This document shows positions 19,737 to 49,230 of a stretch of 64,000 nt of DNA, one piece after another; the first letter of the stretch is position 1; each line of letters opens with the position of its first letter. This DNA is from a virus. The position numbers and the translations under genes are program-made. The notes under the pieces are model-generated. The model was not told the DNA's origin, ran no database searches, and worked only from the letters and a program-made list of their open reading frames with translations. The DNA lies in the IMG/VR virus record IMGVR_UViG_3300028536_000014, positions 180,726 to 244,725 of that record. One strand, written 5' to 3'.

Positions 19737-20582
19737 TTAAACTTGAACAGTCAAGAGAGGTTCGGAGTTCCCTACATCGAATGTATATCGAATACCTTGA
19801 CTCCAATCTGCAGATGGAAAGTTGGTCGACAAGTACGACATAACTTGTGTTGCGATACTTTCCGTATAGGTTGTTGAAATACCCCCGGAGGTAACAGTAA
19901 CTACTCTATCAACACCAGAGCACAAAGCAATCTCACTAATCACTGCATGGTTCTCATCACCATAGATGAGACTTGAAGCATTCAGAAGTTCCAGAACATC
20001 ATTTGCGTCCAGAATGAATGGTAGCGATCCTGTTGCGCTGATATAGTTACCATTAGTAGTAACCGTTGTGCCAGATGAGAGTAGTGTTGGTGTAGGAGAA
20101 AGATTACTAGATCCTGGTGTAAAATCTGATATACTAACCGAACCATCGCTAGCTACATCACGATTCTGAAGCGCCATAGCGATCGTTGAAAGATCCAAAA
20201 TTTTACCGTAATAGGCAAAGTAATTCACACTACCTACCGTAATCAATTTTCGAAGTCGATAATTTTCTTGGATGGTAGAACTGATATCGGAGCTGATAGG
20301 TCGAACGATAAAAGGAAGTTCTTGAAAAAGCCCAGTGTCAGTTGGTTTGTGGTTATACGAAGTCGTATAAGTGAATCCATCAGCACCTGTTCCGACAGAT
20401 AAACCTCCGATCCCTACCATCGCATATTTCAATTTCGGAATCTCTCCAGAATTGAGTGTTGCAGCAGCTTGGATATTCAACTTCTGATTGAGCGTACTAT
20501 AAGGAAGTACCGTATAAGGTAAGTCCATTAGCATACACGCCTGAAGTAATGATTTCATAATGGTTGGAACGTTTCTTTCCAA
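19737..20582 (-). CDS. Virion-like structural protein, 281 aa
   Basis: Starts at TTG (20582; GAGGG about 10 nt upstream), or alternatively at an in-frame ATG eight codons later. Ser/Thr/Gly-rich beta-type sequence (SDGSVSISDFTPGSSNLSPTPTLLSSGTTVTTNGNY) with no enzyme motif. It begins 17 nt after the iscB stop; before insertion of iscB it may have followed the 22241-24310 gene directly. Probably a baseplate or tail component. Confidence 0.55.
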   Translation of the reverse strand: MERNVPTIMKSLLQACMLMDLPYTVLPYSTLNQKLNIQAAATLNSGEIPKLKYAMVGIGGLSVGTGADGFTYTTSYNHKPTDTGLFQELPFIVRPISSDISSTIQENYRLRKLITVGSVNYFAYYGKILDLSTIAMALQNRDVASDGSVSISDFTPGSSNLSPTPTLLSSGTTVTTNGNYISATGSLPFILDANDVLELLNASSLIYGDENHAVISEIALCSGVDRVVTVTSGGISTTYTESIATQVMSYLSTNFPSADWSQGIRYTFDVGNSEPLLTVQV

Positions 20583-20599
20583 GACACAATCCCTCTAAT

Positions 20600-21979
20600 T
20601 TATATAACAGTTATGTAACTATATCCATCGATATGTTGAACACGTTGACAGTATCGATAAGAAGGTTGATAAATCTTTTCATTTATTTTAAAAACAAACT
20701 TACCAGAAGCTCGGCATACTACACGACTGACCTTTGACCAAAGTGGTGGGTTAATACCAGATTTGATAGAAGATCTTACACGAACAAGATCACCTGTTCT
20801 GAATCCAAAGAAATATTTCTGTCTAGGTATATAAGCTTTAATAAAACCATATTGGTCAGGTATTGCTCTTTGATATCTACCTCTACCATTACATTTTATA
20901 TGTAATGTTTTATGAATCCATCCATGTATTTTAACTATATAACCAATACAAATAGCATCTAGAGCATGAGTTTTGGGTATTTTAAAACGTAATCTATTAA
21001 ATTTCGTTAACCCACCACTTCCAGTTTCAATTAATAAACCAGTTTTAATAAGTGCTAATCTAAGTTCATTTCGTATAGCGTTCATAACCGCCATATCTCG
21101 AAGAGGTTTTAATATTTGTTTCTTAAATTTATCTATCTTAATTTGATTAAAATTTAAGAACTCTTGATAACTTTTATTACCTTTAGTTTGATTACACTCT
21201 TTGCAAGCAAGAACTAAATTAATCAAACGATTAGATCCACCTCTACTACGAGGAATTACGTGATCTATTTGAAAACCTTTAGAACACCCATTTCCGCAGT
21301 AAGCACATTTATGATCGAATTTAAGTAATAAATATTCACGAAGTTCGTATCCTAATAATGTACCTTGTTGATACATTATGCCTTCTAAATGAGTATTTTG
21401 AGCCAGTTGTGTATCGAACTTAACATCCTCATAAACAATTTTAGTAATTGGAAACCATCGTCTAAGTCGATTAACCCAAGACATCGTGCTATCAATACGA
21501 TGTTGGATAGAAGGAGGTAACCATCCTTGTGGTCTAGTACGATTTAAGAAACGAGCTTCACGATAACGTGTTTTACGCGAACGCCTGTTACGGCGATGCA
21601 TAGCTCGATTATAAAGTTTTAATTTAATAACACGGCCACGATGTTCTAATTCCATTAAACGAATAACTGTAATTTCGTTTGGTCTATCTTCACGCACGAT
21701 AGCTAATCCGGTTGTTTTACTACCAGGATCAATTTTAATTTGTGTAGGTTGTAATTTACAATTGATTTGTGTTCGATCAAGTAATTGAATAATGAACGGT
21801 TCTCTACGAATTACCTTCGCACGACCTTTATCTAAAAGTTTCCTTGCACTTTTGCCACTACATGGCATTAGTGGTTTACCATCACTTCCAATTACACTAA
21901 CAAAAGTAATTGGTTTAACTTTTACTCGACCTGATTTTGAGATAACGATACGTCTTCCATTATTCTGTTTCTTTTCCAT
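20600..21979 (-). CDS. iscB: IscB RNA-guided nuclease (OMEGA system)
   Basis: A 459-residue protein from the ATG at 21979 (the frame is open further upstream, through the RNA region). Domain order matches IscB: N-terminal PLMP domain (GKPLMPCSGKSARKLL, 35-49); RuvC-I IDPGS with D84; Arg-rich bridge helix (about 128-147); RuvC-II VYEDVKFD with E184; HNH domain with CAYC (225-228), IDHVIPRSRGG (H240) and a CKEC pair at 259-262; RuvC-III THALDA with H338 and D341; and a C-terminal GDLVRVRS...SGKFVF beta domain. Known: IscB, the ancestor of Cas9, cuts DNA under guidance of an omega-RNA encoded upstream. All catalytic residues are intact. No TnpA transposase is nearby. Confidence 0.93.
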   Translation of the reverse strand: MEKKQNNGRRIVISKSGRVKVKPITFVSVIGSDGKPLMPCSGKSARKLLDKGRAKVIRREPFIIQLLDRTQINCKLQPTQIKIDPGSKTTGLAIVREDRPNEITVIRLMELEHRGRVIKLKLYNRAMHRRNRRSRKTRYREARFLNRTRPQGWLPPSIQHRIDSTMSWVNRLRRWFPITKIVYEDVKFDTQLAQNTHLEGIMYQQGTLLGYELREYLLLKFDHKCAYCGNGCSKGFQIDHVIPRSRGGSNRLINLVLACKECNQTKGNKSYQEFLNFNQIKIDKFKKQILKPLRDMAVMNAIRNELRLALIKTGLLIETGSGGLTKFNRLRFKIPKTHALDAICIGYIVKIHGWIHKTLHIKCNGRGRYQRAIPDQYGFIKAYIPRQKYFFGFRTGDLVRVRSSIKSGINPPLWSKVSRVVCRASGKFVFKINEKIYQPSYRYCQRVQHIDGYSYITVI

Positions 21980-21984
21980 CAAAA

Positions 21985-22205
21985 ATTCCAATAATCCCGT
22001 AAGGGACTTGTTAGTCACTCTCGCCAATGTTATCTTAAGTTGACTACTACTTATCACACTACTCCTATCTCACAGAGTTGTTTAATGATAAGACCATAGA
22101 GCTTGGAACTGAGTGGGCATTCCAAGATATGCATCAAAATAACGTAGTATTTTCATACTGAGGCTGATTCATCTAGTCTTACAACTCACGTATTAAAGTG
22201 GAGTG
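21985..22205 (-). ncRNA. omega-RNA (HEARO-type) upstream of iscB
   Basis: The ~260 nt between the upstream structural gene and the iscB start has no convincing separate gene. On the - strand it holds hairpins: AGTAT-GAAA-ATACT (22146-22159), CTTGGAA...TTCCAAG (22102-22126), and TCCC-TTAC-GGGA (21995-22006) just before the start codon. Known: IscB-family genes are preceded by HEARO/omega-RNA of about 200 nt with the guide at its 5' end. Inferred: scaffold begins near GTGAG at 22189, with a ~16-nt guide at 22190-22205. Exact ends are uncertain. Confidence 0.75.
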
Positions 22206-22240
22206 GATGAACTTTTTTCCATTTTTAATGTTTTCCGAGG

Positions 22241-24310
22241 TTAGCTAAGGTATTCGACAGTGACATCTTGCATAATCACACCAACAGGTAAACGAGCTGT
22301 GTTGGTGGTATAACTATCAGGAGTCCCATCACCTTGATTAATAGTTCCGTAGAAGATATTGGGTTCTAGTCGTGCTAGTGTAAGATCTGACTCACTGATG
22401 ATTTCGATATACTGAATATTGTAACTGGTCAATGAACGCATAATTTTGATCATTGCTTGAGTAACATCTTTCTGATCAGACGAAGTATTAACTGAAATGC
22501 CTGTTCCAGCCTGATACAGATTGGTGATCAATTGAGGAAGATATTGACCAACAACCTCATACGAATCTAAGTTGTTCAAGTTTAAAAACTCACTTGCAGT
22601 AGTAGAAGAAGTTTCCAATTCCACTACAGTGTCTGCAAAAAGGTTGTATGCCATGTTCTTGACGTACCCTTTTGCAATTGGATCTTGATGACTAGCGATC
22701 AAAGTATTTTGATTGATATAATTCAGATAAACATTTAGAATCAATGTATAAAATAGACTCGTGGTATTTGTAATAGTTAGTGGAACAAATCCAGCCATTA
22801 AAATTTGAGCATCAGTCAATAACAAATCACGATACGATTGATCAACTAAATCAATCAGAGTATTTGCTGAAATCAATGAACTTGTATTAACATGTTGTTG
22901 TGCTAAGAAGTTAGGAATTAAAGTAACGGGTTCGGGTGTTGTGATTGTGTTATATTTCACAAGTTGATTTAAGTCACTAGAAGGAATTCCTACAATTAAA
23001 TCCTGGGCCATTCCTTGTGAGGTATAAGACAAAGATAAGTAATAGAGATACTCAAACGCAGCTTTGGCTGTTATCGTCTGCTGTGTACCTGTGCGAGGAT
23101 TCTGGAATGTTACACTAGCAGTATAAAGACCTACTGCGGCCATATATCCCCAATGTGTAAGAATAAAATCATTAAAACTTAATGTTGTTACATTGACCGT
23201 ATCTTGAGTCTGTGTAATAACATCTTTAGTAATGACACGCGCTTGATTTTGATGTGAGATATCAAAGAGAACGTCGTTCAATTTTGCATCGTAATAATCT
23301 GTGGTACCATATAGAACTGTCTTTTCTTTGTTAAACAGGTCTTGTGGTGTTAAAGTCTCAGTAGAAGGAACAATCTGAACAACATTTAGTGGTTCAGATT
23401 CGATAATAGTATTTGGGGTATAATCGCTTTCGATTTGATTTGTTTGACGAACTGTATATCCAAACATCTGAATATTACGAGGACTAAGGATATTAGTCAT
23501 TAATTCTGAGAACTGACTATCATATCCCATATAACGTACTAAACGAGGTAAATTGCGATAAAGATACATCGCTTGTTTTTGCGTAAGGTAAGGATAATAT
23601 TGATCCAGTCCCATATATCCTCGTAAGAACATTCTCACATGGAAAGAATGAGCTTCGTAAGTATTGCGACAAGCATCTCGAAGATTAAAAAGTTTTGGAA
23701 GAATAAAAAGAGACAAATTGGCATAAAATGCCATGAGATAATAACCATCTGTTAAGGAATAAGCATCAACATAAACACGTGCGGTATAGCGTTTAATTGC
23801 ATCTTCCAAATTCTTAATTAAAGAATATTCGTTGGATTCAACCAAAGAAGTTTGATAACGAAGGATAGTTCCATCTTCTGCATTAATGGCTGTGTTAATA
23901 TTACAGGGCATTAGAATACCCATAATAACATCTTCTTGATTAGGATATTGGTTAACTAATGTCTGATAGTAACGTGTACCAAAAATATATTCAGCAGCGG
24001 TATTAGGACTTATTGCTAAATTTTCCTTGCTAAAAGTGATTGGTAGTAGAGTATCGAGTGACGTGATGGTCATCTGTGTATCGGTCGAATGATACTCACC
24101 TGAAAGATTAAGATAATATTTCCAGGTGGTTGGATCCGATAGGTTAACTGCAGACGTACCATATTCATTGATCAATGTTGTGTTTTGCGCATCAGCAGAT
24201 TTACCTGATTTGATTCCTAATGTCCGAACCAGATTTAGATTTGCCTGGTAATAGTTTTGAATGAGCGGATCGTTGAGCGGATCCGCTTCTCCCGTTATTG
24301 TATCCTTCAT
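22241..24310 (-). CDS. Large virion structural protein, 689 aa
   Basis: A 689-residue protein starting after CTGGAG and divergent from the portal gene (30 nt apart). It is Tyr/Asn/Thr-rich with alternating helical and beta segments and no catalytic motif. Its position, back-to-back with the portal and near tail genes, suggests a head, neck or baseplate protein. Family not recognised. The iscB element lies directly downstream. Confidence 0.6.
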   Translation of the reverse strand: MKDTITGEADPLNDPLIQNYYQANLNLVRTLGIKSGKSADAQNTTLINEYGTSAVNLSDPTTWKYYLNLSGEYHSTDTQMTITSLDTLLPITFSKENLAISPNTAAEYIFGTRYYQTLVNQYPNQEDVIMGILMPCNINTAINAEDGTILRYQTSLVESNEYSLIKNLEDAIKRYTARVYVDAYSLTDGYYLMAFYANLSLFILPKLFNLRDACRNTYEAHSFHVRMFLRGYMGLDQYYPYLTQKQAMYLYRNLPRLVRYMGYDSQFSELMTNILSPRNIQMFGYTVRQTNQIESDYTPNTIIESEPLNVVQIVPSTETLTPQDLFNKEKTVLYGTTDYYDAKLNDVLFDISHQNQARVITKDVITQTQDTVNVTTLSFNDFILTHWGYMAAVGLYTASVTFQNPRTGTQQTITAKAAFEYLYYLSLSYTSQGMAQDLIVGIPSSDLNQLVKYNTITTPEPVTLIPNFLAQQHVNTSSLISANTLIDLVDQSYRDLLLTDAQILMAGFVPLTITNTTSLFYTLILNVYLNYINQNTLIASHQDPIAKGYVKNMAYNLFADTVVELETSSTTASEFLNLNNLDSYEVVGQYLPQLITNLYQAGTGISVNTSSDQKDVTQAMIKIMRSLTSYNIQYIEIISESDLTLARLEPNIFYGTINQGDGTPDSYTTNTARLPVGVIMQDVTVEYLS

Positions 24311-48021: not shown

Positions 48022-49230
48022 TTATACTGAAACTGGATACTTGATGTGAGGATGATGTTGATAATCGATTATTTCGATATCAGAACGTTGAATAGCAAAC
48101 AAATCTTTGACATTCGGATTGATCTTAATCGTTGGACTTGGTAAAGGAGAACGGTAAACTTGTTCCATCGCTCCTTCAATTTGGTTGGCATAAATATGCA
48201 CATCCCCACCAGACCAGATAAGTTCTTTGACACGCAGATCAGTGCAATGTGCAACTAAATGTAAAAGAGTTGCATAAAAGATCAGATTGGTACAAACTCC
48301 TAATGGTAAATCACAGGACCGTTGAGTCATTCGAAGTGAGAGATAATTTGCACCACCATCTAACGCTTTCTCAACAAAGAACTGAGTGAAGACATGACAA
48401 GGTGCTAAAGCACCCAATCCGAGTAGAATGTTTTCATGTGGCGAATAGGTTCCTTCATATGGCAGAAATTGTGGAATCCATACGGATAGACAATGACGTG
48501 CCGAATAAGGTCGACGCTTGATTCCTCTTATGATTTCACCAAGTTGGTCATTCGATTCAAAATAACGTTTCTTGATATATTGTTCTTTAATAGGAAAAGA
48601 AGTTTCGATGAGCCTCTTATCCAAAAACGCTTTGAGTTCTTCTTCTTTGATCGATTGACTGTTAGCTTCTTCAAGAAATTCATTCTTTACGAAGAAAACC
48701 ATTTCTTCATATTCTTCGCCATAACGTTTCAACTTATCGGAAGGGATGTCTTCCATCAGTAAGTTGTTGAATGGTAGTAAAGCAGTTTCATTGAACGCTG
48801 GATTGTTACGCCAGAAAGCTCCATACATCGGACCGATGGAACCTATATGTTGTTTCATTAAGTTTTCTTTCAGATGACCTAATGCTTCTGGTTCACCATC
48901 TTTGAAGAACTTAGCAATGAAAGCATCAATATCTTTCTCTTCGATAGCCCAAAGTTTCCATATAGGCTTCGTGTTTTCTTTTAGATCGCCAATATTGTAC
49001 GATCCCTTGATCATCCACAAAAGCTCTTCTATCCCATGTTCGTAGTTGATCTTACGAGTAGTAACAATCGGAATAATTCCTGAAGAGAGATCCACACGAA
49101 TATCACGTCCGAATACCCTGACCCTTCCAGAACCCGTTCGATCCGGAGTAACTCCAGTGTCTTCAGCAACCTGAAGGATCTCCTGCATGATATCCAAGTA
49201 ACTTTGTTCCCAATAATTACTACTATTCAT
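48022..49230 (-). CDS. thyA: Thymidylate synthase (ThyA type), enlarged
   Basis: A 402-residue ThyA. PDRTGSG (30-36) is the dUMP phosphate Arg loop, ALAPCHVFTQFFV carries catalytic Cys278, and QRSCDLPLGVCTNLIFYA and DVHIYANQ bind dUMP/folate. It methylates dUMP to dTMP. Typical ThyA is about 264-316 residues; here ~80 extra, mainly charged helical residues lie at about 145-226, between MYGAFWR and the LGEIIRGIKRRPYSAR block. Starts within the end of the upstream collagen-like gene. Works with dCTP deaminase, dTMP kinase and DHFR. Confidence 0.93.
   Translation of the reverse strand: MNSSNYWEQSYLDIMQEILQVAEDTGVTPDRTGSGRVRVFGRDIRVDLSSGIIPIVTTRKINYEHGIEELLWMIKGSYNIGDLKENTKPIWKLWAIEEKDIDAFIAKFFKDGEPEALGHLKENLMKQHIGSIGPMYGAFWRNNPAFNETALLPFNNLLMEDIPSDKLKRYGEEYEEMVFFVKNEFLEEANSQSIKEEELKAFLDKRLIETSFPIKEQYIKKRYFESNDQLGEIIRGIKRRPYSARHCLSVWIPQFLPYEGTYSPHENILLGLGALAPCHVFTQFFVEKALDGGANYLSLRMTQRSCDLPLGVCTNLIFYATLLHLVAHCTDLRVKELIWSGGDVHIYANQIEGAMEQVYRSPLPSPTIKINPNVKDLFAIQRSDIEIIDYQHHPHIKYPVSV

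Follow-up and report, generated by a model that had tools for sequence, protein, structure and literature searches.

The IscB protein and its omega-RNA

The window considered here, 64,000 nucleotides in length, is the final 64 kb (bases 180726-244725) of the 244,725-bp IMG/VR virus record IMGVR_UViG_3300028536_000014, and it contains a bona fide IscB-omegaRNA pair on its minus strand, among genes for virion proteins. IscB is a relative of the ancestor of Cas9. The iscB gene (20600..21979, minus strand), present in a single copy in the record, encodes a protein of 459 aa from an ATG start codon; an alternative GTG start at 22057 would run into the omega-RNA. The protein is composed of PLMP, RuvC-I, bridge helix, RuvC-II, HNH and RuvC-III, followed by a C-terminal region that interacts with the target-adjacent motif (TAM). 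Pfam matches were obtained to RRXRR (E=2.9e-67) and HNH (E=1e-13), phrog_2214 covers the whole length of the protein (E=7e-101), and its best sequence matches in the PDB are TbaIscB and OgeuIscB. An AlphaFold model built from 58 relatives has a predicted local distance difference test (pLDDT) score of 84, and the top ten Foldseek matches of this model are all IscB/IsrB structures. Across 132 aligned IscBs, residues D84, E184, C225, C228, C259, C262, H338 and D341 are invariant, with H240 kept in 131. A preliminary description of this DNA, made from the sequence alone, had given the same domain order with D84, E184, two Cys pairs, H240, H338 and D341, and the Pfam matches and the alignment agree with it; the comparison with protein families that it had proposed (here Pfam RRXRR/HNH and phrog_2214) likewise leads to IscB.

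Directly 5' of iscB, on the same strand, lies the omega-RNA scaffold (22010..22212, minus strand). It matches the HEARO model of Rfam (RF02033) with 100.3 bits (cmscan, E=2e-19; cut-off 83 bits) over model positions 1-211 of 211, so the match is not truncated, and it is the sole HEARO in the 244,725-bp record. The preliminary description had predicted a structured leader here and proposed a search with the HEARO model; the leader proves to be a full-length HEARO, although its boundaries, given as 21985-22205, have to be corrected to 22010-22212. The predicted guide slot is the 16 nt at 22213..22228 (minus strand; 5'-TTAAAAATGGAAAAAA-3'), which abut the HEARO start at 22212. The position of this slot is clear from three comparisons. 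In nearly all of 38 phage loci a conserved GTCA.. begins at HEARO position 1, with unrelated sequence 5' of it. Near-identical bacterial copies at different sites lose homology at the first base of the HEARO or a few bases off in most groups; in other groups, the stretch common to the copies extends further past this base. Lastly, G1 of the scaffold of OgeuIscB comes right after the guide, for which 16 nt are enough (PMC9640706). Matches to the guide with two or fewer mismatches elsewhere in the record showed no excess over the control pattern.

Carrier phage and genomic setting

The record encodes a chimallin of 620 aa, matching phiPA3 PhuN (E=4e-16) and other solved chimallins, a beta-prime-like subunit of a phage RNA polymerase (E=3e-62) and the phiKZ-type virion proteins phiKZ_IP (internal head), PhiKZ_gp91 and DUF7208. 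Judged by this gene content, the carrier is a phiKZ-like nucleus-forming jumbo phage (Chimalliviridae). The preliminary description had rightly placed the element in a structural region of a jumbo phage, but overlooked both the nucleus-forming nature of the phage and the fact that phage-borne HEAROs were already known.

Upstream of the element is a structural gene (22241..24310, minus strand; phrog_3222, E=6e-132) whose relatives are annotated as virion structural protein. Downstream is a DUF7208 gene (19737..20582, minus strand; PF23838, E=3.5e-86), a homologue of 201phi2-1 gp224 and phiKZ gp139; according to the 201phi2-1 record, mass spectrometry identified gp224 as a protein of the virion. 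At gene level, the phrog_3222 and DUF7208 genes are neighbours in about 50 relatives, less than about 100 bp apart and without IscB. For the relatives search, alignment A1 was too diverse and alignment A3 worked. The closest relatives of the window phage are just about 44% identical in DUF7208 (best match), so that at nucleotide level the window has no empty site to set beside it. Single-protein searches of IMG/VR with the window's IscB and DUF7208 returned nothing or one match of 33%, and the nucleotide sequence of the element had no match among 50,697 phage records.

No match to a Y1 transposase (PF01797, IS200/IS605) was found in the 244,725-bp record, which may be incomplete; control genomes were positive. 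The spacer between the iscB stop codon and the next gene (20583..20599, minus strand) is 17 nt, with a GAGG ribosome-binding-like site before a TTG start and no transposon right-end hairpin. In most of the compared bacterial IscB groups, copies are homologous for 37-98 nt beyond the stop, several of them with a terminal hairpin. With a spacer this short, the transposon right end is missing. The absence of a transposase and of insertion sequence (IS) ends noted in the preliminary description is thus borne out as regards an IS200/IS605-type transposase and a right end; the term 'complete' used there holds for the nuclease and its RNA, but not for a transposon, the right end of an IS element being absent.

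Relatives of IscB were found at 67 IMG/VR loci, and an Rfam scan placed a HEARO at about 44 of 48 loci on viral contigs. In a tree of the 132 IscBs, the window's protein forms a long branch inside a mixed bacterial and viral group, the bacteria of which are mainly Pseudomonadota and Nitrospirota, with Ktedonobacter as well; its exact position is unsure since long branches meet. It diverges by about 50% from the nearest IscB. G+C content at third codon positions of iscB is 16%, versus 23-60% in the other genes tested. As codon usage is otherwise phage-like, the gene does not look like a fresh arrival.

An IS200/IS605-type IscB element could have landed here, lost its right end and now be merely inherited, immobile and without consequence. 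The missing right end, the lack of a detected transposase and the long branch all fit such a passive relic, and decay is seen elsewhere: one of the two IscBs in another nucleus-forming phage, record G033, is truncated at about residue 293 (copy L073). A pure relic should, however, have lost some of its catalytic residues or RNA structure, and all of these are kept despite about 50% divergence, which makes this explanation unlikely. Intact catalytic residues on a long branch, together with a full HEARO, argue that function has been maintained.

An empty site in a sister phage

IscB is present in three other DUF7208-bearing records. In two of these (L068/L069), IscB is accompanied by a HEARO (108 bits), and a close relative, L306, has the corresponding empty site. 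The genome of L306 (250,515 bp) encodes chimallin and is 96% identical to L069; no IscB was detected in it by search. Positions 1316-2726 and 4400-7332 of L069 align to adjacent bases of L306 (4915|4916). Since two further relatives, 64-70% identical in a neighbouring protein, also do not have the insertion, it is the derived state in L069.

The last 15 nt (ATTCCAAGAAATGAT) of the L069 guide (GATTCCAAGAAATGAT) match the empty site of L306 as the reverse complement, that is, on the opposite strand. This 15-nt sequence occurs exactly once, with no mismatch, in the 250,515-bp L306 genome: at the insertion point, where it is followed by ATGATC. By arithmetic, 15 matching nt would lie this close to the junction (some 20 bp) by chance with a probability of about 1e-8. 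The insertion in L069 replaces 4 bp (CATT), 3-6 bp from ATGA. Of the bacterial copies that fall near the window's IscB in the tree, some terminate in ATGATGA, and the ATGA beside the match in L306 therefore looks like a candidate TAM. As the guide is inverted relative to its target, it is not simply the continuous left flank and would have been either carried in or copied at insertion. Such a correspondence between guide and empty target in a nucleus-forming lineage is what RNA-guided homing would predict, and the sister viruses suggest that elements of this kind copy themselves into relatives that do not have them.

The G033 record (220,598 bp; chimallin, E=4.6e-26) has two IscB copies. The truncated one (L073:2141-5204) is followed by TnpB, and a gene for thymidylate kinase reaches with its 3' end into the HEARO, such that kinase coding sequence makes up the guide and the last residues of the kinase are read from the RNA. 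When an IscB-free relative of this thymidylate kinase was sought, the kinase itself was the only match. The two ends of the record (L067/L319) share about 120 nt that fall within a HEARO, so a circular or circularly permuted genome of 220 kb is probable, with an intact IscB where the ends join.

The junctions of the window's element

Within the window's guide, 18 nt past the upstream stop codon, ATGGAAAAAA (22213..22222, minus strand) is a speculative candidate for the place where the downstream virion gene originally started, since displaced. The DUF7208 genes of relatives begin ATGGAAAA.., and that of the window begins TTGGAAAGAAAC. About 55 chance occurrences of ATGGAA are expected in the window, which by arithmetic gives about 1% for a 28-nt stretch. 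A direct or inverted copy of the guide was sought at the right flank, and left-right similarity was no higher than in shuffles, so that the idea of a regenerated start hangs on the short ATGGAA motif by itself. No empty site turned up at a DUF7208 gene when a MEKNVPT-type start of the virion gene was looked for. At less than even odds, then, insertion may have taken place just within the DUF7208 gene, the right side of the element now providing the new start.

A few tens of bases at most separate the guide from the junction with a virion gene, as might be expected of an RNA-guided regulator of that gene, and a nuclease directed at the host has been considered alongside. Both nuclease domains are intact, however, and binding to its own matching phage DNA would cut that DNA; either role is highly improbable.

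Proposed role of the element

The reading favoured here, with a probability of roughly 0.6, is that the IscB-omegaRNA pair is a freestanding RNA-guided homing (marker-exclusion) element of a nucleus-forming jumbo phage. The preliminary description had named homing and a weapon against co-infecting phages as possibilities; the guide match of the sister phage lends homing indirect support. The omega-RNA would be made together with the virion-gene operon and bound by IscB, and the resulting ribonucleoprotein (RNP) would cut this locus in a co-infecting relative that has it in element-free form. Recombinational repair would then copy the element in, or the rival would simply lose. In nucleus-forming phages, the phage nucleus is the site of RNA synthesis and holds the target DNA, and IscB would be translated outside it. 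Given these locations, a functional IscB RNP has to be brought in through a shell that keeps out other DNA-cutting enzymes.

Homing by the window's own element is inferred, and with it nuclease activity, a target, a TAM and passage into the phage nucleus; by analogy the element would work as that of L069 is proposed to. Several points weigh against the homing interpretation. The window phage has no close relative (best DUF7208 match 44%), which makes a comparison of guide and target impossible, and the right junction of its element is without an ATGA-like motif. The IscB of the sister phage L069 belongs to a different clade, and the inverted orientation of its guide relative to the target means that the mechanism may differ from that of the window's element. 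Expression of the pair and the import of IscB into the phage nucleus are themselves presumed.

The nuclease might also be a domesticated weapon or a means of locus protection, cutting co-infecting relatives for the benefit of the carrier after self-transfer has been lost. A precedent is provided by PhiPA3 gp210, an intron-encoded HNH homing endonuclease that serves as a weapon between nucleus-forming phages, for which interference competition has been proposed (PMC11620839), and which is selectively imported (PMC11620839; PMC12908238). The fixed place of the element in a virion operon is in keeping with this, as are unrelated freshwater phage contigs in which IscB is followed by an array of clustered regularly interspaced short palindromic repeats (CRISPR), one spacer of which resembles a phage. 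No array is found at the window's locus, though, and such a role overlaps with homing to the point that sequence does not separate the two; taken as a distinct explanation, it appears improbable.

A wider proposal, put forward tentatively and at somewhat under an even chance, is that IscB colonised nucleus-forming jumbo phages several times. Such elements would be freestanding and home by RNA guidance, each with a guide of its own inside the mobile unit; they would insert non-destructively at the edges of conserved genes (here perhaps rebuilding the start codon of a virion gene) and work as an RNP inside a nuclease-excluding compartment. Homing by IscB has so far been argued mostly from transposons. 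Two jumbo phages that differ by one IscB element, the guide of which has a single match in 250 kb, at the empty site, bring RNA-guided homing in viruses within reach of a direct test.

Other IscB-HEARO loci

On a set of freshwater IMG/VR contigs (L048, L321, L331-L334, L343-L345, L347, L350, L352 and L353), IscB and a HEARO are followed by a CRISPR-like array (e.g., L343:5621-6982 and L331:5570-6602). The repeats are 36 nt in length and present in up to 19 copies; the spacers are mostly 34-45 nt, with 69 distinct and 28 restricted to one contig. A 37-nt spacer of L343 (5732-5768) matches Planktothrix phage PaV-LD with 91.9% identity, and the 5' end of the HEARO is complementary to the repeat at 11 of 12 bases. 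Possibly, phages carry here an IscB that is associated with CRISPR and directed against other phages. Related contigs without IscB (L323-L329 and L337) have a single repeat-like sequence where the others carry IscB and the array, as though this had been the seed of the array. L048 was considered as a second example of an empty site and homing and was rejected: its guide slot is inside the inserted segment and has no match to the empty contigs, and a CRISPR array comes after IscB.

At L014:1820-2707, the HEARO starts on the last base of the upstream stop codon, the first G of the RNA completing TAG, another insertion at a gene edge. On a further phage contig (L043:2710-2751), the HEARO begins inside a tRNA-like sequence and the guide resembles the anticodon arm of a tRNA. 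Elsewhere in the window (48022-49230, minus strand), a thymidylate synthase of 402 aa has about 110-130 extra residues within the 266-position Pfam domain.

Comparison with known systems

No description of IscB in nucleus-forming phages was found in the open-access literature, which does not prove that none exists. Virus-associated HEARO nucleases have been reported: more than 16% of the fragments that encode a HEARO were assigned to viruses or prophages (PMC9755519). The element of the window is of a known kind, in a new setting. Viral carriage is shared with those nucleases, 67 IMG/VR loci having been found in the present analysis, and to them the present case adds a nucleus-forming carrier and the empty site of a sister phage with a guide match.

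The window's element resembles the IscB-omegaRNA (OMEGA) systems of IS200/IS605-like elements (HEARO, RF02033) in domain order, catalytic residues, upstream HEARO and a guide slot at the 5' boundary. It differs from them in that no Y1 transposase was found in the record, in the lack of a right end and in its location in the virion operon of a nucleus-forming phage. It shares with PhiPA3 gp210 (PMC11620839) the HNH nuclease, the link to a mobile element and the group of phages; gp210 is protein-guided and lies in an intron, whereas IscB is RNA-guided and lies outside any intron. Freestanding homing endonucleases of phages, T4 SegF among them (cited in PMC12908238), are likewise intergenic, beside conserved genes and without an intron. 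IscB would instead owe its specificity to a guide RNA, and a change of about 16 nt could redirect it.
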